A stretch of DNA of 64,000 nt from Nitrospirota bacterium (GTDB lineage: Bacteria > Nitrospirota > Nitrospiria > SBBL01 > JAADHI01): contig JAJDBW010000021.1 of the NCBI GenBank assembly GCA_029261155.1, positions 1 to 64,000 of the forward strand. The letters are read 5' to 3'. The position numbers were made by a program, and so were the translations under genes. The stretch's first letter is position 1. Each line of letters opens with the position of its first letter. This document shows positions 11,466-62,317 of the stretch, in pieces. Below the pieces are notes generated by a model. The model saw only the letters and a program-made list of their open reading frames with translations. It made no database searches and was not told the origin of the DNA.

Positions 11466-12899
11466 ATGTCGGATTCCAGAAAAAAAATCGTTATTATTGG
11501 TGGCGGTATTACAGGTTTGTCGACCGCTTATTTCCTTCAAGAATCTTTAAAAAAGAAGGACCTGGCGGTGGATTGTGTGCTTATCGAAGCCGAGGGTCGG
11601 CTTGGGGGAAAAATCCGCTCAGAACGGGTCGATGAGTTTATTATTGAAGGCGGTCCCGATTCCTTCATTACCCAAAAAAAGTGGGGGGTGGAACTCTGCA
11701 GGCGCTTGGATTTGACGGATAGTCTGGTTCAAACCAATCCCATAGATAAATCTATTTTCGTTTTGTCAAAAGGAAAGCTCCAAGCCTTTCCGGAGGGTTT
11801 TAATTTAATGGTCCCCAGCCGCATGATTCCCTTCATGCTGACACCGCTGATCTCTCCGCTGGGAAAATTACGAATGGGCATGGACCTCCTGATCCCCAAA
11901 AGACAGTCGTCGTCTGATGAAAGCATTGCCGCCTTTGTTCGACGGCGCTTGGGAGAAGAGGCCGTGCAAAAATTTGCGCAACCGATCTTGGCGGGCATTT
12001 TCGCCGGGGATGCCGAAAAGCTCAGCATGCAGGCGACCTTTCCACAATTTTCCGCCTTGGAACAAAAGTACGGGAGCTTGATTAAGGGCATGCGTCAGGC
12101 CCGGGGAAAAGCCCAAGGCCCGACCCCCTCAAAACCGGCATTGTCCCTTTTTGTGACGCTCCGTGAGGGCTTATCGAGCTTGCCTTTAAAAATTCGAGAA
12201 AAATTAGATGAGGTGGAAATTATAAGCGGTCAAGCCGTAACTGCAGTGGCGCGCGTCGACCATCGTTATGCGGTTGATGTGGGACCTTCGCGACTTTTTG
12301 CCGATGCGGTTGTGATGACCACGCATGCCCACCGTGCGGCGGAATGGATCGTCGGGTGGGACCCTCGGCTTTCAGATCTGTTAAAGGCCATTCCCTATGT
12401 GTCGACTGCGACTGTGTCGCTTGGCTTCAAGAAGGCGGATGTTCCACATGCCTTAAAGGGCTTCGGTTTCGTGGTGCCGCGCCAAGAAGCGTGTACGATT
12501 ATGGCCTCGACCTGGAGCTCCACAAAATTTCCAGGGCGCGCGCCGAAAGATCATGTGCTGATTCGTACGTTTTTGGGTGGAGCGGGTCGGGGAGACCTTG
12601 TCGAACGAGAAGATAAAGACCTCGTTGCGCGCGTTCGAGAAGATCTTCGAAAAATTCTGGGTATTGTGCCGGAGCCAGTGGTCGCCAAAGTTTTTCGGTG
12701 GATGAAGGCCAACCCACAATATGCGGTTGGGCACCTAGATCACGTGGGTAAAATTGAAAAGCAAACGGAAGCACATGCAGGACTTTATTTAGCGGGTGCA
12801 GCCTATCGCGGCGTAGGCATTCCAGACTGTATCGAACAGGGGATGCGAACTGCCGAAAAAATTACGACATGGCTGACTGCGGGCCGGATGACAGCTTGA
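11466..12899 (+). CDS. hemG: Protoporphyrinogen oxidase (HemY/PPOX type)
   Basis: A 477-residue FAD enzyme that oxidises protoporphyrinogen IX (or coproporphyrinogen in the HemY branch) to the porphyrin, late in haem synthesis. The dinucleotide-binding fold KIVIIGGGITGLSTAYFL is at the N-terminus, followed by the PPOX pattern EAEGRLGGKIRSER, EGGPDSFITQK, FAQPILAGIFAGDAEKLSM, and the C-terminal FAD contact GLYLAGAAYRGVGIPDCI. HemY and classical HemG differ in kind; this one is the FAD amine-oxidase-like type, and the symbol is used loosely. The gene stands apart from other haem genes, but it may supply porphyrin for the cytochrome at 0.6 kb and is relevant to the PCP_red cassette at 52-57.6 kb. 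Confidence 0.93.
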   Translation: MSDSRKKIVIIGGGITGLSTAYFLQESLKKKDLAVDCVLIEAEGRLGGKIRSERVDEFIIEGGPDSFITQKKWGVELCRRLDLTDSLVQTNPIDKSIFVLSKGKLQAFPEGFNLMVPSRMIPFMLTPLISPLGKLRMGMDLLIPKRQSSSDESIAAFVRRRLGEEAVQKFAQPILAGIFAGDAEKLSMQATFPQFSALEQKYGSLIKGMRQARGKAQGPTPSKPALSLFVTLREGLSSLPLKIREKLDEVEIISGQAVTAVARVDHRYAVDVGPSRLFADAVVMTTHAHRAAEWIVGWDPRLSDLLKAIPYVSTATVSLGFKKADVPHALKGFGFVVPRQEACTIMASTWSSTKFPGRAPKDHVLIRTFLGGAGRGDLVEREDKDLVARVREDLRKILGIVPEPVVAKVFRWMKANPQYAVGHLDHVGKIEKQTEAHAGLYLAGAAYRGVGIPDCIEQGMRTAEKITTWLTAGRMTA

Positions 12900-47402: not shown

Positions 47403-49892
47403 TTAACAGCAGTCCGTTGACGAACAGGAGTCTGCGTCTTCCGAGGCCTTGGCCTTGATGACAGACGCTTCCCCTTGTGTGATCACGAAGGCCTGTTGGT
47501 AAGGTGGCTTTTGTAGTTTCGCCGCCGTATCGGTGCACACCTGCACGGCTTGATTCCGAGGGAAGAGATGGCCTTCCTCATCCACGACGGCTTGCATGGG
47601 GCCCAGGTAGGTTGCCCATTGTCCGACATAGTTGCAGCTCGCCTTTTTTTCGAATTTGTAGCCGCGAATAACTGCGGAGTAAAACCGGTAGCCTTCCACT
47701 TCTTTCCAAAGGGTTTTTTTCAAAATGGAGAGCCCGTAGAAGCCGGCCTGTTCGAGCTTCGCCAGATATTCCTTTTCGGTCAGCGCCCCCGAGACGCATT
47801 CTCCCCAAAGGCGTGGATTGGCCTTCATCCCCTCGGGCAGGGCCTGTTCCGTAATGGTATCCGAGATAACGATGCGCCCGAAATCTTTCAAGACGCGCCA
47901 AATCTCGACGAAGACCTGTTTTTTATCGGGGGAAAGATTGATAACGCAATTCGAGGTGACCAGATCGGTAAATTGGTCCGGCAAGGGGATTTCTTCGAGA
48001 TAGCCCTTTTTGAATTCGACATTGGCATAGCCTAGATTGGCCGCGACGATTTCTCTCGCCGCGTTGGCTTGACGCAGCATCCGATCGGTCATGTCGATGC
48101 CGACGACACGGCCCCTGGGCCCGACTTTTTTGGCGGCGATAAAACAGTCGATGCCACCGCCCGAACCGAGATCAACCATGATTTCACCTGCTTTGAGGCC
48201 GGCCAGATCCACCGGGCTGCCGCAGCCGTAGGAAATTTCCAGGACCTCCTTGGGGATGTGGTCGCTACCGTCCAAGGGATAGCCCTCGGGGCAGCAAAGT
48301 GCGGCCTGTGGGGTTTCGGCCGCATCTCCGTAGAAATCGCTGACGACGCGGCGGGAGTGATCGAGATCGACCGAGAGGACACAGGCCGAACGCGAGAGCG
48401 AAACCGCGAAGCCGCCAAGGGTTTCGACGCCAGGACGGGGGCTGTCTAAAACGGCATCGTCCCCCATGGCGGCAAAAATGACCGGCCGGTCATAGCCGGA
48501 GGCGGTTTTCTGCCGGGCCTTGGCCTCCGCGCGAGAAAATAAAATATCCAATATCCAGGCTTCGTAAAAATCGGAGAAGGGGTCTTCGCCCAAAAATCGA
48601 CCGCTGTATAAGTAGCTGTGTTCAATATCGCCGCCGCCGCAAAGGAATTTTAGATAACAGTCTTTACATTTCGCCTTATTTTGCACGGTCGCTTTACGAA
48701 TCGATTCAGCCAGAGGCGCGTTTTTCCATATGGCCTCAAGACTTTTTTCCAAAGTACTGCCCAAACTCAGTTCAGGAATCCCGGCCAGGGCCGCCGTCGG
48801 GTAGACTTGCGCGTCCGCATACACGCAGAGGGATTCGTAGGCCGCGTTGGAGAGATCGACCTTTAGATGCGATGGTCCCATTAAGCTGCCCATCAACACA
48901 TCGTGATTGTCGAAGCTGAGGCCCAGGGCATCCGTCGCCGCCTTGCTGCGTTTGAAGGCTTCGAGCAAGGCCGCAGTCGAAGGGGGCGCGAGGGTATCCG
49001 ATTCGAGGGCACGGCCTCGGTGATGACTCAGCAGGAGATGGAGATTTTTAATGCCGAGCTTTGAGGCGAGATGAACCATGTCTTCGAGATGCGCGACATT
49101 CGAGCGATTCACGACCGTGGTGAGGGTGGGAGAAAAACCGAGGCCGATGGCTTCTTTGATGCCACGGATGGTCGCGTCGAAGGTTCCGTTTCCCCGCATG
49201 GCATTGTTGATTTCGGCCGTCGGCCCGTCCAGGCTGATTTGGAGCTGCAGGCGGTTTGGATCGCAGAGGGATAATTTCTTGAGGTGTTCTCCACGAAACA
49301 GCATGCCGTTGGTCAGGATAATCAATTCCGCCTTCGGTATCTCAAGGATATGGTCGATGATTTCGAAGATGTCGTCTCTTAAAAAGGGTTCGCCGCCCGT
49401 AATGTAAAAACGCGATGTTCCCAAGGCCTGGGCTTGATCGATGATATTTAACCAAAACGCCGTGTCTCCACCGGGGATGCCGCTGGGCGAAGAGCTGACC
49501 AGGCAATGGCTGCAGCTGAGGTTGCAGGCATTGGTGACATGAAGCCATAGTTCACTCAAGCGGCCGGGGCGGAGGACTTCGGCGCGGCCGGGATAGGGGG
49601 CCTTCGTTTGGGATTGCGTCGAGATGAATTTCTTGCCGAGCGCCTCCTCGAAAAAACTGTGGCAATGCAGCCAGGCCTTGGCCCAGTCCATGCCGTTTTC
49701 TCGGGCGTAGGTTGCAACGAGATCGCCGAAGGTTGTCTTCCCATCCAGCTTGCGAATCAAGTCGGCGCCTTGGGCGTCCGTCGCAATCCAATGGGGCCCT
49801 TCCGGATCGATTAAAAGTCTGAGATTTTGACGAGAGATCTCTCGGTAGAGGGGGACGAAAAATCGACTGTCGTTTGCAATGGCTTCAGTCAT
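47403..49892 (-). CDS. PqqD-like - radical SAM/SPASM - ArsM-type methyltransferase fusion
   Basis: An 829-residue three-part protein. Residues about 30-92 ([20 protein letters not shown] ... [12 protein letters not shown]) have the helix-turn-helix layout of PqqD/RiPP-recognition domains. The radical SAM core has Cys 123, 127 and 130 ([12 protein letters not shown]), the GGEPF motif and an auxiliary-cluster SPASM motif [14 protein letters not shown] near 405-425. The rest is an arsenite S-adenosylmethionine methyltransferase-like module (about 520-800): [51 protein letters not shown] and [12 protein letters not shown] carry the conserved arsenic-binding cysteines. The C-terminus ends CSSTDCC. 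It is divergent from the Crp/Fnr gene with a palindromic operator between them. No arsR or ars operon is nearby, so the arsenic substrate is likely but not shown. Confidence 0.85.
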
Positions 49893-51984: not shown

Positions 51985-54645
51985 ATGTATAAGTCGATTT
52001 ATATTCCGGTGGACAATTCGGACTATTCGAACACCGCCATCGACATTGGCATGTTGTTGGCAAAACAGTTCGGATCGAAGGTCATTGGAAGTCATGCTTA
52101 TGCCGCCAAGCTTCACGACCGGCGCTTCAAACAGATGGAGGCCGGCCTTCCTGAAGAATACCACGACGAAAACGAACTGGAACGCCAACGAAAAATCCAC
52201 GATTCGCTTATTACCCGCGGACTCGAAATTATTACTGACTCTTACCTCGACATCGTCGATCAAAAAGCAAGCGAGCACAATGTGCCGGTCGAACGCCGAT
52301 CCCTTGAGGGCAAAAACTACAAAGTGCTCGTTGAAGACATCGTGAAAAATGGCTACGACCTGGTGATTTTGGGTGCCCTCGGTGTCGGGGCCGTCAAGGA
52401 AAGCCTCATCGGCAGTGTCACCGAGCGGACCATTCGCCGCGTGCGCAAATCCGATATTTTTATTGTCAAAGAACCGGCTTACGCGATCCCTAACAAGAAA
52501 AAAATCGTTGTGGCCGTGGATGGCAGCCACTACTCCTTCGGCGGCTTTAAAACCGCCCTGGCCCTGGCCAAGGCCTTCGATCTCGAAGTCGACGTCGTCT
52601 CCGCCTTCGATCCCTACTATCACTACGCCGTGTTCAACTCCATTTCAGGCGTTTTAAACGAAGAGGCCGGAAAGGTCTTCCGCTTTAAGGAACAAGAGAA
52701 GCTGCACGAGGAAGTGATCGATTCCGGCTTGGCCAAAATTTACCAATCGCATCTGGAAGTCTGTACCAAACTCGCCGAAGAAGAAAATGTCAAAATCAGC
52801 ACCTCGTTGCTCGACGGCAAGCCCTTTGAAAAAGTTTATCAATATGTCCAACGTGAGCGGCCCTGGCTCCTGGTGGTCGGGCGTATCGGTGTCCACTCCG
52901 ACGAGGAAATGGATGTCGGCAGCAACAGCGAAAATCTCATTCGAAGCGCCCCTTGTAACGTTTTGGTGTCGAACAAAAGCTACATTCCACCCATCGACGC
53001 CATTGCCGAATATACGGTCGCCTGGACCGAAGAGGCTTCCAAAAGGATGGAGAAGGTGCCGATTTTCGCTCGCGGCGTGGCCAAAACGGCGGTCTATCGC
53101 TACGCCATCGAAAAAGGCTTTACGATTATTTCCAATTCGGTGGTCGATAGCGCCATGGGCGACATCCTGCCAAAGTCTGCTATCGATATGATGAAGAATA
53201 TGGGCAAGGAACTCGACGAAAAAGGCATCGACCGAAATAAGATGGTCGCCGACGACGGCGTGGCCGAATCCCTGAAAAGCGGCGGCATCGCCGGGATGAT
53301 GACCCAAATCGTGGTCGACCCGGATGCGGAGCGTGCCGCCGGTTACGACGAAAAGGCCAAGCTCGATTTTTATCTCTGCGGCGGATGCGGCTATACCGCC
53401 AAAGGCAGCCAGCCGGTGAAGTGTCCCATCTGCAGCGCCGAAGGTAGCAAATTCCAATTTATCGACAAGTCGCTCTTCGAATCGGCAGCAAAAGCCGAAG
53501 GCGGTGTGTCTCAGGAAGTCGGCTACGATGGCGTGCCGCTCAATTGGACGGAAGATGCAAAAAATATTCTGCGAAAAGTCCCGGCCGGTTTTGACCGTCG
53601 CCGCACCAAGGCCAAGGTCGAGAAAACGGCGCGTAAGATGGGCTTCCAAACCATTTCGAAGGAATTCGTGGTTCGTATTGTGGATGGCGGGCTCGACTAC
53701 ACCGATCTCGAAAATACGGACGAAGTCACCGCCAAAGAGGAAAGCGCCAAGCCCGGGCCGACCGCACCCACATTTACTTGGAGCGACGAGGCCAAGGCCC
53801 GTCTCGAAAAGGTGCCGGTGGGTTTCATGCGGGACGCCACGCGACAGCATATTGAAAATTATGCCTTTGGAGAGTCGGTCGGTCATATTACCCTCGATAT
53901 TGCCGAAGGTGGCATCCAAAAGGCGACAAAAGAAATGGAAGACGTCATGTCCGGGGCAACGAGTCTCGACGAGATTAAAAAACGGATGGCGGCGATGTCC
54001 TCTGGTGTCTCCCCCGATGTAGCCACGGAGGAAAAATCCTTCCACTTTTGTGGAATGTGCGGACATGTCGTGAATCGGGTTCCCGAAAAATGCCCGGTCT
54101 GCGAGGCCCAGAAATCGCGTTACATGTTAATGCGCGCTGAGATCGACTACTTTATCTGCATGGTCTGCAGCTTGGTGGTCGAGCAGGTGGTGCCGGAACA
54201 TTGTTCCCTCTGCGGCGCCAATGGTGAATATCACATCCAGCTTGAACGAAAAGTCCGCGATCTTGAATCGGCCCTTCCGCAAATCGTGTGGACCGAAGCC
54301 GCATCCACCATTCTCGAAGAAATTCCGGAAGGCTTTATGCGGGAGATGACCCGTTGGCGGATTGAGGCTGATGCACGCAAAAAAGGACTCTCTGAAATCG
54401 ATCCTGAGGTGGTCTCCAGTAAGTATAATCAATGGAGCCAAGTGTCCAGAAAAGTTGAACGGCACTTGCCATGGGGTGATGATGCCTTGCATCGCATGTC
54501 CTTAATTCCTTCTTTCGTGCGCGGCACCGTGGTCAAGGAGATCGAAGCCCATGCCGAAGAGCAAGGCCTGGCGCGTGTGACGGTCGAGATCCTCGATCAG
54601 GTCACCGCACGCTGGACCGAAGCCATGCGCAACCAAGGTTTCTAA
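51985..54645 (+). CDS. Usp2 - PCP_red5 - rubredoxin-like3 fusion protein
   Basis: An 886-residue protein of five kinds of module. Two universal stress domains (about 1-165 and 168-335), each with the nucleotide-loop pattern (GALGVGAVKESLIGSVTER; GRIGVHSDEEMDVGSNSEN). Five PCP_red repeats, of the type W-T/S-x2-A-x2-R/I-L-x2-(I/V)-P-x-F-x-R, start near residues 346, 520, 597, 768 and 828. Three rubredoxin-like zinc ribbons have paired CxxC motifs (CGGCGYTAKGSQPVKCPIC about 466; CGMCGHVVNRVPEKCPVC about 688; CMVCSLVVEQVVPEHCSLC about 725). PCP_red is known from the C-terminus of BchB/ChlB. The whole has no membrane segment, so it is cytoplasmic; I infer an electron- or tetrapyrrole-carrying scaffold. 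A strong GGGGAGG precedes the ATG. Confidence 0.85.
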   Translation: MYKSIYIPVDNSDYSNTAIDIGMLLAKQFGSKVIGSHAYAAKLHDRRFKQMEAGLPEEYHDENELERQRKIHDSLITRGLEIITDSYLDIVDQKASEHNVPVERRSLEGKNYKVLVEDIVKNGYDLVILGALGVGAVKESLIGSVTERTIRRVRKSDIFIVKEPAYAIPNKKKIVVAVDGSHYSFGGFKTALALAKAFDLEVDVVSAFDPYYHYAVFNSISGVLNEEAGKVFRFKEQEKLHEEVIDSGLAKIYQSHLEVCTKLAEEENVKISTSLLDGKPFEKVYQYVQRERPWLLVVGRIGVHSDEEMDVGSNSENLIRSAPCNVLVSNKSYIPPIDAIAEYTVAWTEEASKRMEKVPIFARGVAKTAVYRYAIEKGFTIISNSVVDSAMGDILPKSAIDMMKNMGKELDEKGIDRNKMVADDGVAESLKSGGIAGMMTQIVVDPDAERAAGYDEKAKLDFYLCGGCGYTAKGSQPVKCPICSAEGSKFQFIDKSLFESAAKAEGGVSQEVGYDGVPLNWTEDAKNILRKVPAGFDRRRTKAKVEKTARKMGFQTISKEFVVRIVDGGLDYTDLENTDEVTAKEESAKPGPTAPTFTWSDEAKARLEKVPVGFMRDATRQHIENYAFGESVGHITLDIAEGGIQKATKEMEDVMSGATSLDEIKKRMAAMSSGVSPDVATEEKSFHFCGMCGHVVNRVPEKCPVCEAQKSRYMLMRAEIDYFICMVCSLVVEQVVPEHCSLCGANGEYHIQLERKVRDLESALPQIVWTEAASTILEEIPEGFMREMTRWRIEADARKKGLSEIDPEVVSSKYNQWSQVSRKVERHLPWGDDALHRMSLIPSFVRGTVVKEIEAHAEEQGLARVTVEILDQVTARWTEAMRNQGF

Positions 54646-54682
54646 AACGCCTTTGTTTTAGCCTAAGGATCGGAGTTTCGTC

Positions 54683-56068
54683 ATGGCATACCAAGCCTAT
54701 TCTGTTTCATGGAATCTCACCCAGCGCTGCAATCTGTTTTGCACCCACTGCTACATGAGCGCCTTCCCCAATGCCGATGTCTCCGGAGACTTGACGACGG
54801 AAGAATGCTTCAAGGTGATGGACGACATCGAAAAGGTGAATCCGAACGTCTTCCTGATCCTCACCGGCGGTGAGCCCCTGGTCCGGAAAGACATCTTCGA
54901 TATTGCTGGCTATGGTTCCGACAAAGGCTTTACCTGCGTGCTCGGCACCAATGGGGTGCTCATTGGCAAGACTGAGGCGCGAAAGATGCGCGAGAGTGGT
55001 CTGCAGGGGGCATCCATTAGTCTCGACTCGGTCGATCCGGCCAAGCACGACGAATTCCGCCAGCTCCCGAAATCCTGGGAACACGCCATCCGGGGCATGA
55101 ACTATCTCAGGGAAGAGGGCCTCGATTTTTCCATCCATATGAGCGTGATGGCTTGGAACGTCTCCGAGATTCCGCGCATGATTGACCTTTCCCGCAAGCT
55201 GGGTGCGAAGGTCTTGAACTTTTTCTTTCTCATCCAAACCGGACGAGGAGAAAATATCATCGATATTGAGCCGACCCAGTACCGCGAAATCCTCACCTAC
55301 TTGGCACGGGCACAAGGCGTCGGGAGTGCAGAGCACAAGGTCTCGGGTTCCCTCTTCACCGAATTTGGCGATCCTTGGACCACGCCGGCGGGCGAAAGTC
55401 ACGGACTGATCCTTCGCGCAAAATGCGCACCCCATTTTCGAAAGGTGATCTACGATCTCGATCCCGAATCGCCTCTGCTTAAAAACTATGCTCAGGGCAG
55501 TTGTCCGGCAGGAAAATACTATTGCCGCATTACGCCCTCCGGCGACATCACGCCTTGCCCTTACATGCCGGTGACGGCGGGCAACTTGCGGGAGAAATCC
55601 TTCGACGAAATCTGGCACAACTCGCCCGTGCTCAATGACCTGCGCGATCCGGTCTTGGGCGGACGCTGTGGCGACTGTGAATTCTCGGAGATGTGCGGAG
55701 GCTGCCGCTGTCGGGCCTATGCCTCGTCCGGCGATTATCTGGGTGAAGATACGGCCTGCGATTACGAGCCGGGACAATATGGCGGAGAAAAAATTACCCT
55801 TGGGGCCGAGCAGACCTTTGGCTTGGCGGTTAATTTAACTCTAAACTGGTCGGAGTCCGCACGCGCACGCTTAAAGGGTCTGCCCTCTTTTGCACGTGGC
55901 ATGGTTTCGAGAGGGGTTGAGCAATACGCCAAAGAAAATGATATTGATTGCATCACACCGGAAGTGATGCAGGTGGTTCGTGAACGCGCAGAGACGCGTC
56001 TCGGTCGCCGCTTTAATTTTACGGAATTTAATCGGGATGGGTCTGAAGTCACCCCCACTCGAAAATAA
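54683..56068 (+). CDS. AhbD/NirJ-like radical SAM/SPASM protein with C-terminal PCP_red repeat
   Basis: A 461-residue enzyme. Radical SAM cluster at Cys 16, 20 and 23 (NLTQRCNLFCTHCYM), GGEPL motif, and a SPASM region with CAPHF, CPAGKYYC, CPYMPV and CGDCEFSEMCGGCRC for auxiliary [4Fe-4S] clusters. This order is that of AhbD, NirJ and related haem- or haem d1-modifying enzymes. After about residue 388 a PCP_red repeat ([20 protein letters not shown]) is fused on. Substrate could be a tetrapyrrole or peptide; the PCP_red fusion supports the former, as inference. GGAG is 7 bases before the ATG. It lies 37 bases after the giant Usp gene and 42 bases before the PCP_red-only gene. Confidence 0.85.
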   Translation: MAYQAYSVSWNLTQRCNLFCTHCYMSAFPNADVSGDLTTEECFKVMDDIEKVNPNVFLILTGGEPLVRKDIFDIAGYGSDKGFTCVLGTNGVLIGKTEARKMRESGLQGASISLDSVDPAKHDEFRQLPKSWEHAIRGMNYLREEGLDFSIHMSVMAWNVSEIPRMIDLSRKLGAKVLNFFFLIQTGRGENIIDIEPTQYREILTYLARAQGVGSAEHKVSGSLFTEFGDPWTTPAGESHGLILRAKCAPHFRKVIYDLDPESPLLKNYAQGSCPAGKYYCRITPSGDITPCPYMPVTAGNLREKSFDEIWHNSPVLNDLRDPVLGGRCGDCEFSEMCGGCRCRAYASSGDYLGEDTACDYEPGQYGGEKITLGAEQTFGLAVNLTLNWSESARARLKGLPSFARGMVSRGVEQYAKENDIDCITPEVMQVVRERAETRLGRRFNFTEFNRDGSEVTPTRK

Positions 56069-56110
56069 AATGGGTGCAAGGCAGCCCAATTTGAGTTAAG
56101 GAACGATCCA

Positions 56111-57097
56111 ATGGCAAAACAAGAAGAATCGACGATCACTTGGACGCCCGACGCCGAGGCAAAACTAAAGAAGGCGCCTTTCTTTTTAAGGGGCATGGTG
56201 CGTAAGCTTTCGGAAAAAAAGGCCCGCGAGGCGGGTATTGATCTTATCACCGAAGAGGTTCTCGCGAAGTTTAAAGACAAGATGATGAACCCGATGATCG
56301 CGGAAGGCACTGGCACCTCACATGCGGCGGCGGGGGTGGAAACGCAGCCCTTGGCCTGGACCCGTGAGGCGACGGAGCGACTCGAAACCGTGCCCGAGTT
56401 TATTCGTGGGATGATCAAAAAAATCGCCGAGGAAGTCGCTTTGGAACGCGGTCACCTTGAAGTTGATTTGGCCCTCTTAAAAAAGGCGGAAGCCCTGGGT
56501 GATACCCAGGAAGATGCCTCGCGTCCGGCAATGGCATGGACCGATGCGGCGAAGGTTCGCCTCGAACAAAAAATCGCCGAAGCGCCCGATATGGCGCGTG
56601 ACTTCGTTCGTGACATGTTAAAAAACGATGCCGAAGACCTTGCGCGGGAGATGGGATTAGAGCGGATTGATCTGGCGGCGGCCACGCAAATCTGGGATGC
56701 GCCCAAAAGCGATGTGACTTGGAGCGAAGAAGCGCACAAGCGTTTGATGACCTCACCCGACTTCGTTCGCAGCGGCATCAAAAAGGCGGCGGAGCGCCGC
56801 GCCCGCAAGATGGGGCTGACGACCATCGGTTCGGAGCATTTGACAGGCTTTAGAAACGAGGCCATGATGAAGGCAATGAAACGGCTCCGTTCTTTTGGTT
56901 ATGACGAAATGACCTTCGACGGTTTCGAGGATGCCAAAGAAAAAATCAATCGCCTCAAAGACAATCCCGAAGCCTCAAAACGCTTAGAGGACATTAAGTC
57001 CTATATGGAAAAAAAGGGAGATATCGGCCTGATCGATGAGGAAATGCTCGATCGGATGAAGGATTACTTAAAAGACCCCACCAAGAAAAAGATGTAA
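56111..57097 (+). CDS. Tandem PCP_red-repeat protein
   Basis: A 328-residue protein built of four PCP_red repeats starting near residues 14, 82, 141 and 202 (WTPDAEAKLKKAPFFLRGMV, WTREATERLETVPEFIRGMI, WTDAAKVRLEQ, WSEEAHKRLMTSPDFVRSGI), spaced 59-68 residues apart, and a C-terminal coiled, Lys/Glu-rich tail ending LKDPTKKKM. The third repeat has an insertion of about three residues. There is no other domain and no membrane segment. It is the third gene of the cassette and may serve as a soluble carrier or scaffold. AAGGA lies before the ATG. Confidence 0.8.
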   Translation: MAKQEESTITWTPDAEAKLKKAPFFLRGMVRKLSEKKAREAGIDLITEEVLAKFKDKMMNPMIAEGTGTSHAAAGVETQPLAWTREATERLETVPEFIRGMIKKIAEEVALERGHLEVDLALLKKAEALGDTQEDASRPAMAWTDAAKVRLEQKIAEAPDMARDFVRDMLKNDAEDLAREMGLERIDLAAATQIWDAPKSDVTWSEEAHKRLMTSPDFVRSGIKKAAERRARKMGLTTIGSEHLTGFRNEAMMKAMKRLRSFGYDEMTFDGFEDAKEKINRLKDNPEASKRLEDIKSYMEKKGDIGLIDEEMLDRMKDYLKDPTKKKM

Positions 57098-57136
57098 CGA
57101 AGCCCTTCCTTATGGAGGACCTCAATTGGAGTTGGA

Positions 57137-57598
57137 TTGAATTTTTCTGCTGTTCTGAATCATTGGTTGCACCTCCTTTCCGTCATCGTGTGGATCGGCG
57201 GTTCCGCTTATCAAGTGTTTGTCCTCTCTCCCCTGATTAAATCGGGAGATCTCCCTTCAAAAACCCTCGTACAGATGTTGCGTCGCTTCCGGAACGTGTC
57301 CCTGGTCGCCCTTATTGTCCTGGTGGTGACCGGCGGAATTAATCTTGGCATCCGGCGTGCCGGTCATGAAAGCTTTCCGCCGGGCTATGTGTCTGCGCTG
57401 GCCGTGAAAGTTTTTTTGGTTGTGGCCATGGGTTCCGGCCTTTTAGTCGGTTATGTCCGTTCTGCCGATGACGAAAACAAAAAGGAAAGCGGATCGGATC
57501 AGTCGGCACTTCCGGGTTTTGGTACCACCAAGGTGACCTTTGCCTTTGGCATTATTGTGATTTTCTTGGCCTCAATGCTCAGGCAGTGGAAGTTCTAA
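57137..57598 (+). CDS. CopD/HemJ-like four-helix membrane protein
   Basis: A 153-residue integral membrane protein with about four helices (near residues 6-26, 52-72, 84-104 and 130-148). The first holds His 9 and His 12 in LNHWLHLLSVIVWIGG, the sequence typical of CopD-like and HemJ-like proteins, which bind haem or copper; further on it has VALIVLVVTGGINLGIRRAGHE. HemJ oxidises protoporphyrinogen with haem b as electron acceptor, CopD moves copper; which applies cannot be told. It starts with TTG (57137) 39 bases after the PCP_red gene, GGAGT in front, and closes the cassette. Confidence 0.72.
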   Translation: MNFSAVLNHWLHLLSVIVWIGGSAYQVFVLSPLIKSGDLPSKTLVQMLRRFRNVSLVALIVLVVTGGINLGIRRAGHESFPPGYVSALAVKVFLVVAMGSGLLVGYVRSADDENKKESGSDQSALPGFGTTKVTFAFGIIVIFLASMLRQWKF

Positions 57599-57652
57599 AC
57601 GCGATTCACTCAGGCGGCTTGCGCCTTGATCCCTGCTTTTCTTGAATGCCGA

Positions 57653-58258
57653 ATGACTTCATCTTTGACCTTTCTTTTTAAAAGACAGTTTATCCAGAAA
57701 ATTGCATTATTTAGTTTTATTCTTCTTGTCCTTCCGCTTCCGAAACTCTTCGCCATCCACGCGATTTTAAAAGACGGAGAAGCCCTTCCCAGGACAGTCG
57801 AATCAATCACACTGGAGATGCCGATTGAATCCTTTCTACAAAAAAATGAAGGGGAGTTAGAAGTGCCGGCGGCGATCGGGCAGTTCGAAGACGAGCGGCG
57901 CTTTCAACTCGATTCCTTCCCCAGCCGTCGCGGCATCGATAATCTCATTGTCGATTTTTTTCAAGGCATCTTGTTTCGCATCGAAGTGAACTATCTGCCT
58001 TTGGACAAAGACGCTTCGACAGTCGAGCACCTGATCGAAACCTGGTCTCGGCGATTCGGTCCGCCTCGGATCAATGTCCTTCCGGAAACCCGGCTCCTGT
58101 TTTGGGACGACGGCGCAACGCGTTTAATTTTAGCGATCGAAGATGCACCCAAGGCCCAACTCTATTCGGTGACCTATATCGACGATGACTTGTTTCACCG
58201 TATTAGCCGCGAACGGGTGCAACGGGAAACATCGGGCCAATCCAGTTATGGCAAATAA
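57653..58258 (+). CDS. Exported hypothetical protein
   Basis: About 200 residues, with a hydrophobic N-terminal segment (FIQKIALFSFILLVLPLPKL, about 14-33) as signal peptide. The mature part (QFEDERRFQLDSFPSRRGID, FFQGILFRIEVNYLP, TLIETWSRRFGPPRI-type) is a compact alpha/beta domain of unknown family. It lies 27-54 bases after the CopD-like gene on the same strand. The start at 57653 (MTSSLTFLFKRQ) is preferred to a TTG at 57626. It could be an accessory of the cassette, but only position supports this. Confidence 0.6.
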   Translation: MTSSLTFLFKRQFIQKIALFSFILLVLPLPKLFAIHAILKDGEALPRTVESITLEMPIESFLQKNEGELEVPAAIGQFEDERRFQLDSFPSRRGIDNLIVDFFQGILFRIEVNYLPLDKDASTVEHLIETWSRRFGPPRINVLPETRLLFWDDGATRLILAIEDAPKAQLYSVTYIDDDLFHRISRERVQRETSGQSSYGK

Positions 58259-59691: not shown

Positions 59692-60765
59692 GTGCGTCCG
59701 CCCCATGCCATGCTAGCAAAGCTATACAGTGCCGTGCTCTATGGGGTTGAAGCCCACCCGATCGACGTCGAAATCGATTTATCGCAGGGGCTTCCTCTGC
59801 TGTCCATCGTCGGGCTTCCCGATCTTGCGGTCAAAGAAAGTAAGGACCGCCTCCGCTCCGCCATTAAAAACACCGGCTTCCATTTTCCCGTTAAAAAAAT
59901 CACCGTTAATTTAGCTCCTGCCGATCTCAAAAAAGAAGGCTCGGCCTTCGATCTGCCCATGGCCCTGGGGGTTTTGGCCGCTGACGGCGTTGTCAAAGAA
60001 GGTCGGCTCGAAAACTATTTGGTTGTTGGCGAACTCTCACTCGATGGCCGAATCAAGGCGATTAAAGGCGCACTGCCCATTGCGATTCTGGCGAAAAAGC
60101 TGGGGATGGATGGAATTATCCTACCGGCCCAAAATGGGCCCGAGGCGGCAGTGGTTTCGGGCATCAAAGTCTTGGGCATGGAGACCCTGCCTCAGGTCGT
60201 CGAATTTGCCAATGGAAATCAGGAGGTCAGCCCCGTCACCGTCGATCTCGATGTCCTCTTTGCCCAGAGTACCGACTATGCCGACGATTATTTCGAGGTG
60301 AAAGGACAGGCCCATGCCAAGCGGGCCCTGGAGATCGCCGCAGCTGGCGGGCATAATCTCCTCATGGTCGGACCACCCGGTTCGGGTAAAACCATGTTGG
60401 CGAAACGCTTCCCGAGTATTCTTCCCCGCATCGGTTTTGAAGAGTCCCTCGAGGCGACGCAGGTGCATAGTGTGATCGGCATTCTCGGCGGCAAGCATCC
60501 GCTTTTAACCATCCGGCCCTTTCGCGCCCCGCATCATACGATATCCGATGCCGGACTCATCGGCGGCGGACAGATCCCGCGCCCCGGCGAAGTCAGCCTG
60601 GCCCACAACGGCGTCCTTTTTCTCGACGAGCTTCCCGAGTTTAAACGCAACGTCTTGGAGGTCCTTCGCCAGCCGCTCGAAGAGGGGAAGGTCACCATCT
60701 CCCGCGCCACAGCATCTTTAACCTATCCGGCCCAATTCATGCTCGTCGCCGCGATGAACCCCTGA
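59692..60765 (+). pseudogene. comM: ComM/YifB (Mg-chelatase-like), 5' part, cut by an integrated element
   Basis: The first 357 of about 510 residues of the AAA+ helicase ComM, which extends heteroduplex DNA branches in natural transformation. Seen are the N-terminal domain ([41 protein letters not shown]), Walker [16 protein letters not shown], the [17 protein letters not shown] motif and LFLDELPEF. The frame stops at AAMNP, exactly where intact members continue as NPCPCG, and foreign sequence begins. The missing C-terminal third is expected beyond the right edge of the element. It starts with GTG 59692 or near ATG 59707 ([10 protein letters not shown]). The protein product is probably not functional. 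Confidence 0.9.
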
Positions 60766-62317
60766 CGTTGTGGTGCCTTCGAGTCATGTCTAAAGAGGAA
60801 GGGAGGTAACAGAGGTTGATGGTTACTTCGTCTGATCCAATGGTAATTTTTTCGACAAGGTTCTCGACGACCTTCCTCTTTTCATCCCGAACAAGAGTCG
60901 GCCACTTGGTGTAAAGGTCTTTGGCCTCGGTCAAAATCTGATCGCTTGAGATGTAGCGGATCTTTAAAAAATCGATCTCGCCTTGCAGTTGAGGGATCTG
61001 TTCTTCGAGTTGAAGCCGCCGGTCTTCCAGGGGCTGGTACTTGATGACAAACCCGTCTTTGGTGATCTTCTCATCAAACAGAAGGTTGTAGACCGTATCG
61101 ATCCCCTTTCTGACCTTGGTAAGTTCTTCCGACAGAATACGGAGTAATTTTTCCTTTTCCTTGATCTTTTGATCGGCGTTTTCCATGTAGCCGGTGATTT
61201 CTTTCGGAGAACAGAAATAGGTTTTGAGTTGTTCGTGGAAGACTCCTTCAAGGTCGGCCACGCTGATCTTGTTTCGGCAGGTGTAGCAGATGTATTTGGG
61301 TGAATTGGAGGGGACGTACATCTTGGTCTTGCAATTACAAAAGGCAACGCCGGTGAACAGATGGACGGCTTTTCTTGTCGGTGGTTTACGGTTCTTTCGG
61401 CGCTCATCCAAGATCATGTTGCACTGATCCCATAGTTCTTCCGAGACAACCGGCTCCACCTTGGTGATGACCCACTCATTTTTGGGTTTTAAGACCCATT
61501 GCTTGCCTTCTCCCAGGCTTTTTGTGTAGTTGGCTCTCCGTTCCCCTTTGGCCGTGGGATCACGAATCAGGCGCTCGATGGTGGTGTCGGTGAATTTTGC
61601 CCCTTTCCTTGTCCGGTGTCCGGCTTCGGTGAGCAGCCTTGCAACCGTCTTTCTTCTTCGGTGTTCTAAAAACATCTCAAAGATGAGTTTGCGGACCGGC
61701 GCTTCCTTGGGATCGGGAACCAACTTCCGGTGTTCATTGTACCGGTAGCCAAAGGGGGCGGCCCCGCCCAAGGGCTTGCCGAGCTTTGCCCGGATCGGGA
61801 CCGAAGCACGAATACGGGACGCGATCTCTTCCCGCTCCCATTCGGCCAAGCCCGCAATCATCGTGTAAAAGAACCTCCCAGCCGGTGTGGAGGTGTCGAT
61901 GGACTCTTGGAGAGAGATGAGATCGGCATTGTGTTGTTGGAAGAAATCAGAGAATTCCAAGAGTTCCCTGGTATTACGGGCGAGCCGGGCGACTTTTGAA
62001 AAAATAAGGCCGGTGATATGACCACTTTTTATGTCTTTGAGCATCCGCTGAGCTTCGGGATGGGAAATGACCGACTTTCCGCTGACGGCCTCAAGGTGAT
62101 AGACCTCTTTGACTTCCCAATCTCTGGAGACGACGTAGGACTCTGCGCGTTTTTGGTGATGTTCCGGGCTGTCGCCTCCGGCTTGTTCTTCGGTCGAGAC
62201 ACGAATCCAGATACCAACGTGCTTTCCTTTCGAGGATTCTTCCGATAAGAGATGTTTGCTGGAATCGCGTAAAAGCGTCGGCATGATCAAACGATTGAGG
62301 TTGTTTTCATCGTTCAT
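60737..62317 (-). CDS. Large serine recombinase (integrase)
   Basis: A 526-residue site-specific recombinase. The N-terminal resolvase domain (about 30-175) has the catalytic Ser in [11 protein letters not shown], plus [13 protein letters not shown] and [19 protein letters not shown]; then a recombinase domain ([33 protein letters not shown]), a zinc ribbon ([12 protein letters not shown] ... CYTC) and a coiled-coil region (about 385-470). It inserts an element at its attachment site, here within comM. Its stop codon lies inside comM: the last eight residues or so (RGSSRRRA) are read from comM antisense sequence, a sign that integration itself made the present C-terminus. The start [10 protein letters not shown] is uncertain by a few codons. 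Confidence 0.95.
60756..60770. other. Attachment junction (attL) in comM
   Basis: The comM reading CCC TGA replaces the usual Cys-Pro-Cys codons just after AAMNP, so the crossover lies at or just before 60764. The bases AACCCCTG are shared by the expected comM site and could hold the core dinucleotide. Exact borders need the right end. Confidence 0.6.

Follow-up and report, generated by a model that had tools for sequence, protein, structure and literature searches.

A conserved PCP_red and radical SAM gene cassette of Nitrospirota as a candidate heme maturation system for cytochrome bd-like respiratory complexes

We analysed 64,000 nucleotides of contig JAJDBW010000021.1 (Nitrospirota bacterium, assembly GCA_029261155.1), hereafter the window, and found that four adjacent genes form a cassette built around the PCP_red domain. 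Gene 2 encodes a radical SAM/SPASM enzyme with the cysteine signature of AhbD. We put at about one half the probability that the cassette is a maturation system that modifies or installs heme in the noncanonical bd-like respiratory complexes of Nitrospirota. Domain content, the AhbD cysteine signature, conservation, and linkage to and co-occurrence with bd-like oxidases were established directly. A first-pass annotation of the same letters had described the cassette and read it as a system that acts on a tetrapyrrole or serves a radical SAM enzyme; the likely client (bd-like complexes), the class-wide universality of the genes and a second PCP_red locus with an Mrp-type ATPase go beyond it. 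No description of the gene set was found in the freely accessible literature searched for PF08369, PCP_red or the combined parts.

Domain content and conservation of the cassette

The five, one and four PCP_red copies first read from genes 1, 2 and 3 were recovered in Pfam hmmscan searches, in which the whole proteins scored 174, 47 and 160 bits (curated PF08369 cut-off, 32.5 bits); one gene 3 copy (56537-56677) reached 29.2 bits and alone lies under it. The other parts named at that stage were also found: the Usp profile matched twice in gene 1, with the ATP-type motif G-2x-G-9x-G-S intact in both domains, gene 1 also has three rubredoxin-like knuckles, and the radical SAM and SPASM domains of gene 2 were clear. 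The label CopD/HemJ-like for gene 4 held in its first half, by 0.9 bit (CopD, PF05425, 33.0 bits, cut-off 32.1), and not in its second (UPF0093/HemJ, PF03653, 19.9 bits, cut-off 34.2); the Nitrospira defluvii homolog scored 24.2 bits for CopD, under the same cut-off. Across 58 homologs of gene 4, H9, W10, H12, W19 and K91 were invariant, with His and Lys within the membrane region. The spacing is as tight as proposed, with gaps of 37, 42 and 39 bases between successive genes, and a Shine-Dalgarno-like sequence, GGGGAGGAA, lies upstream of gene 1. The single promoter suggested for the four genes was not recovered: a consensus scan gave fewer sites than shuffles did, and the site near gene 1 overlaps the gene 1 start codon.

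The records closest to the host were Nitrospirota metagenome-assembled genomes, Candidatus Manganitrophaceae and Troglogloeales, and the best 80 matches in a wider genome scan were all Nitrospirota; the host belongs to Nitrospirota, class Nitrospiria, near Manganitrophaceae. PCP_red was carried by 58/58 relatives from 24 genera of the class, usually in 9-13 copies each and most often 12, and in a phylum-wide sample it occurred in every in-class genome and in only some genomes of other classes. A gene-neighbourhood survey of related genomes bore out that the genes are conserved together, with gene 1, the radical SAM gene and the CopD-like gene contiguous in nearly all loci of sufficient length for a judgement; the order of the cassette did not vary within the class. 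Gene 3 stands between the radical SAM and CopD-like genes in Troglogloeales, where gene 1 has five PCP_red copies; the Nitrospira gene 1 has three, and gene 3 is located elsewhere there. The set is also present in Candidatus Nitrospira defluvii (FP929003). At a second conserved locus, an Mrp/ApbC-type P-loop ATPase is paired with a two-PCP_red protein, joined in some genomes, including the host, by a heme-oxygenase-like diiron protein. A six-frame search of the host genome returned the same ten PCP_red copies and two more at C1:9081-9371, within a 239-residue zinc-ribbon-like protein (C1:8679-9398) on another contig. This search found no BchB-type protein, ruling out a photosynthesis remnant, and the cassette proteins scored 94-95 bits against BchB TIGR01278 (cut-off 490), the match being limited to the C-terminal domain.

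Solved PCP_red-containing structures comprise 2KRU, 2L09 and entries for the dark-operative protochlorophyllide reductase (DPOR; 2YNM, 2XDQ). Structure predictions of genes 2 and 3 were mediocre (predicted local distance difference test scores of 68 and 62), and in the low-confidence model of gene 3 a repeat matched 2KRU with a root-mean-square deviation of 1.3 Å over 52 residues. Among 388 distinct PCP_red domains, Trp1, Pro13, Phe15, Arg17, Glu25 and Ala28 were conserved, and no His or Cys was. Direct iron binding by PCP_red is therefore unlikely, and a role as an iron-ligating heme domain was ruled out; the domain should instead dock partners or hold a macrocycle through stacking and salt bridges.

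Across the phylum, PCP_red was fused to the cassette radical SAM enzymes and to AhbD-type enzymes, one of which (L199) scored 489 bits for AhbD against a cut-off of 500. In family f23 the partner of PCP_red is a domain of the chlorite-dismutase/ChdC family (L249:6689-7675, L248:10035-11057), and in L250 it is a NIR_SIR siroheme-type sulfite/nitrite reductase domain with a 4Fe-4S ferredoxin insert (L250:2227-3051, minus strand). With BchB counted, the partners of PCP_red are four unrelated tetrapyrrole enzymes; the BchB, AhbD, ChdC/Cld and NIR_SIR classes have no common fold, but tetrapyrrole substrates or cofactors are common to all. Two further arrangements were observed. Family f22 (L148, L149, L150) has a radical SAM enzyme with three to four C-terminal PCP_red copies, followed by hemY, and family f15 has a small protein made up of PCP_red alone, encoded after a His-rich cupin-like gene (L242:1372-1555; L243:9209-9445, minus strand). 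A link to the cytochrome 579 heme of Leptospirillum was considered for f23, which we take to be a family resembling that genus, and was dropped because PCP_red in f23 occurs only in the fusion to Cld or is absent.

We then compared gene 2 with known radical SAM families. It has the CX3CX2C radical SAM motif at residues 16-23, and the full SPASM motif of AhbD, CX20-33CX17CX36-37CX2CX5CX2CX17-35C (PMC10452713), fits residues 248-359 with spacings of 25, 17, 36, 2, 5, 2 and 17. This motif was present in 120/123 PCP_red-bearing homologs of gene 2, in 0/910 unrelated open reading frames, and in neither of two NirJ proteins nor the window's ArsS-like enzyme. All eight SPASM and three radical SAM cysteines were invariant in 40 sequences. 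The best NCBIfam scores all fell in the heme branch (NirJ2 308, AhbD 298, TIGR04053 249, NirJ 189 and AhbC 179 bits), E-values and cut-offs being measures of homology and not of activity. In a tree, the cassette enzymes grouped in a single clade (SH-aLRT 91), distinct from that of AhbD (98); inside the AhbD clade PCP_red was acquired a second time (L059, L199). The predicted fold of gene 2 matched PqqE, SkfB and SuiB best, there being no AhbD among the solved relatives, and the model was too weak to read the placement of PCP_red relative to the active site.

Linkage to bd-like oxidases and heme b routes

Cytochrome bd-like terminal oxidase (TO) complexes are known in the respiration of Nitrospira and Manganitrophaceae (PMC9040806, PMC8115632), and text searches of both papers gave no mention of accompanying radical SAM or protochlorophyllide genes. 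A bd-like family profile separated cleanly from canonical CydA (E <1e-100 vs 1e-10 to 1e-40). Cassette genes were found within 5 kb of bd-like oxidase genes at 10/34 out-of-class loci from 8 families, where about 0.28 loci would be expected by chance (Poisson P ~6e-13, with related loci not fully independent). These bd-like operons include c-type cytochromes, some with ethylbenzene-dehydrogenase-type heme subunits and a dimethyl sulfoxide reductase-type II molybdoenzyme. At a further locus (L196) the bd-like gene lies 12 kb from the cassette on the same contig. Outside the class, 24 genomes matched the bd-like profile strongly, and PCP_red was present in 24/24 of them; every in-class genome sampled has PCP_red as well as the oxidase.

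Other neighbours also belong to respiration or heme metabolism. In two genomes of family f30 (L253, L254), the cassette flanks cytochrome-type genes, nirS, NirJ, NirF (cytochrome d1 domain) and a fusion of the siroheme decarboxylases AhbA and AhbB, an operon for heme d1 synthesis. The cassette adjoins nosZ in L196 and hemY in L149. Because its relatives lie beside unusual oxygen- and nitrogen-respiring enzymes, the cassette probably makes or fits a special heme for them. The tetrapyrrole reading of the first-pass annotation is now backed by independent lines of evidence: the AhbD-type cysteines of gene 2, its scores within the AhbD/NirJ family, fusions that join PCP_red to three tetrapyrrole enzyme classes other than BchB, and neighbours such as these and the bd-like oxidases. 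A conserved protein of 220-240 residues, 'sm244' (L251:6963-7637 and related), is encoded with the cassette at many non-Nitrospiria loci; it has no Pfam or NCBIfam match and carries the motif FSAHLPVM...GLEIFxGKxxxN.

We also surveyed the routes to heme b. Ferrochelatase (HemH) was found in most genomes, and a ChdC/Cld-family protein (190-207 bits) in most Nitrospiria tested. HemF was found in f11, HemF besides Cld in f7, and HemN with HemF in f9. In other classes a separate AhbD-like gene lies near hemH, and in several outgroup genomes cassette enzymes occur alongside AhbD-like ones. Genomes retain the cassette regardless of their route, and it therefore probably acts beside or after heme b synthesis. 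After the HemH, HemN, ChdC and HemF searches a replacement heme b synthase was rejected for most of the class, and because Nitrospiria have other heme b routes, the cassette appears not to be an ordinary heme synthase. Outside the cassette, the window also encodes a HemY-type protoporphyrinogen/coproporphyrinogen oxidase (11466-12899, plus strand; TIGR00562 327 bits, cut-off 97.85).

Proposed role and alternative explanations

What gene 2 acts on and makes, which way transfer runs and what each PCP_red module does are inferred. Gene 2 would carry out oxidative radical chemistry on a side chain of an iron porphyrin, the likeliest target being a propionate of heme b or coproheme; that the specific reaction is propionate decarboxylation is a guess that we hold only tentatively. 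The PCP_red modules would dock partners and present or carry the tetrapyrrole substrate; the enzyme itself has one, the Usp/rubredoxin scaffold five, gene 3 four and the Mrp-linked protein two. Gene 1, with its ATP-binding Usp domains and rubredoxin knuckles, may supply or remove electrons and organise the complex. From the knuckles and the Mrp-type ATPase, delivery of electrons or clusters to the radical SAM enzyme is predicted as a possible function. Gene 4 would pass the product to the membrane or through it, the membrane being the place of assembly of the putative client, the bd-like oxidase. A narrower version, in which the AhbD-like enzyme makes an undescribed heme derivative, the PCP_red strings are its carrier or docking system and the derivative is the active-site cofactor of the bd-like oxidase, seems to us rather doubtful.

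Several observations weigh against heme maturation for bd-like complexes. Gene 2 falls under every heme-family NCBIfam cut-off, including the equivalog cut-offs for AhbD (TIGR04545, 298.5 against 500 bits) and NirJ (TIGR04051, 189 against 515 bits), and lies outside the AhbD clade; that its substrate or product would be of heme type is itself a prediction. HemJ membership of gene 4 is weak, and PCP_red has no conserved iron ligand. Within Nitrospiria no bd-like gene adjoins the cassette, and 'sm244', its conserved out-of-class partner, is absent from all 23 Nitrospiria tested, with no in-class counterpart. Three genomes (G065, G252, G300) carry the cassette with no bd-like oxidase detected, and in f30 it is also found by itself or beside nirS; the range of clients may therefore be wider.

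The survey of heme b routes bears on the explanation that gene 2, as a divergent AhbD equipped with carrier domains, is an ordinary heme b synthase that converts coproheme to heme. Its AhbD signature, its universality in the class, its rank as the closest AhbD relative in Nitrospiria and the AhbD-like gene kept beside hemH in other classes would fit this, but the Nitrospiria tested have ChdC/Cld, HemF or HemN routes and keep the cassette regardless, and AhbD-like and cassette enzymes occur together in several outgroup genomes; we consider it distinctly improbable. Modification of a protein or peptide, with PCP_red as recognition domain and a respiratory complex subunit as substrate, we regard as unlikely. 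SPASM enzymes often act on peptides, PqqE, SkfB and SuiB head the fold matches (albeit with AhbD missing from the solved relatives), and multi-PCP_red proteins resemble docking scaffolds. However, heme enzymes rank first among the sequence families, the AhbD-specific cysteine spacing is kept, the PCP_red partners elsewhere are tetrapyrrole enzymes, and no conserved short precursor peptide was found beside gene 2 in the loci examined.

Two further explanations were weighed. In one, which we find quite improbable, the cassette would be a low-oxygen stress or regulatory module whose Usp, rubredoxin and PCP_red parts sense redox state or oxygen and control respiratory complexes, making no cofactor. 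A Crp-type regulator is encoded just upstream of the cassette in the window, Usp domains are present, and Usp proteins of Nitrospira marina encoded near electron-transport operons, not identified as gene 1, rise at low oxygen (PMC8115632); yet the regulator is not kept beside the cassette in the relatives examined, and the cassette always retains a catalytic AhbD-type enzyme whose cluster ligands are all invariant. In the other, very unlikely in our estimate, the genes would assemble iron-sulfur clusters or deliver them to respiratory enzymes, PCP_red serving as the adaptor and the Mrp-type ATPase carrying the clusters. The Mrp/ApbC-type ATPase does adjoin a two-PCP_red protein, and the Usp-radical SAM pair lies beside iscS/iscU-like genes in L193, but that isc neighbourhood occurs in a single genome, and the AhbD-type enzyme and the fusions to tetrapyrrole enzymes would be left unexplained.

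The bd-like terminal oxidases of Nitrospira, comammox bacteria and manganese oxidizers are poorly characterised, cofactors included. If the narrower version is true, the new heme would be the active-site cofactor of the oxidases that nitrite-oxidizing, comammox and manganese-oxidizing Nitrospirota are believed to use for respiration. A class-universal set with a heme-type radical SAM enzyme, found wherever bd-like oxidases occur in the sample, would be a direct handle on the heme of these oxidases. PCP_red, otherwise known from chlorophyll synthesis, would be understood more generally as a domain that partners tetrapyrrole enzymes.

Other features of the window and comparison with known systems

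Table 1. Genes and repeated modules of the cassette (window positions) and loci outside the class (L numbers) with PCP_red genes beside bd-like operons.
Feature	Position or locus	Strand	Size	Basis or remark
Gene 1: two Usp, five PCP_red, three rubredoxin-like knuckles	51985-54645	+	886 residues	Pfam hmmscan
Gene 1 PCP_red copies	53023-53154, 53545-53670, 53779-53901, 54289-54417, 54472-54600	+		
Gene 1 rubredoxin-like CxxC/CxxC knuckles (n=3)	53377-53433, 54049-54102, 54157-54213	+		
Gene 2: AhbD-type radical SAM/SPASM enzyme	54683-56068	+	461 residues	C-terminal PCP_red at 55847-55972
Gene 3: four PCP_red, without catalytic domain	56111-57097	+	328 residues	Pfam
Gene 3 PCP_red copies	56141-56269, 56357-56488, 56537-56677, 56720-56845	+		
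Gene 4: small CopD/HemJ-like membrane protein	57137-57598	+		Pfam
Gene 5: conserved neighbour, unknown family, possible fifth operon member	57626-58258	+		
Usp and radical SAM-PCP_red genes beside noncanonical cytochrome bd-like operons	L146, L149, L192, L195, L197, L252, L255, L256			
PCP_red proteins without radical SAM beside bd-like operons	L151, L245			

Gene 5 follows gene 4 after 27 bases and is kept there in most examined Troglogloeales loci; Pfam and NCBIfam searches gave no match for it. Upstream of the Crp-type regulator, the minus strand at 47403-49892 encodes an 829-residue fusion of PqqD-like, radical SAM/SPASM and ArsM-type methyltransferase parts. Downstream of the cassette, comM (yifB) is split, with residues 1-354 at 59692-60765 and residues 352-509 at contig C14 104777-105250, about 44 kb downstream. 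Serine-recombinase-like genes lie at 60737-62317 and further inside this stretch, and comM appears to be interrupted by an integrated element of about 44 kb.

Among known systems, AhbD (iron-coproporphyrin III decarboxylase, heme b synthase) resembles gene 2 in its radical SAM core and its eight-cysteine SPASM domain of equal spacing, and forms the sister clade. Gene 2 differs from it in its separate clade, its C-terminal PCP_red and its retention beside other heme b routes. The heme d1 enzymes NirJ and NirJ2 belong to the same superfamily, and NirJ2 gave the top NCBIfam score, but NirJ lacks the full SPASM motif, and NirJ and the cassette enzyme coexist in L253 and L254. The C-terminal PCP_red of BchB/ChlB (2KRU, 2YNM, 2XDQ) is the same domain as the cassette copies by sequence and fold; unlike BchB/ChlB of DPOR, the cassette has no nitrogenase-like N/B part and spreads 10 copies over three other proteins. 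Gene 4 stands at the CopD threshold and below that of HemJ, with its invariant His and Lys in the membrane region, and the bd-like TO complexes are the proposed client of the cassette.

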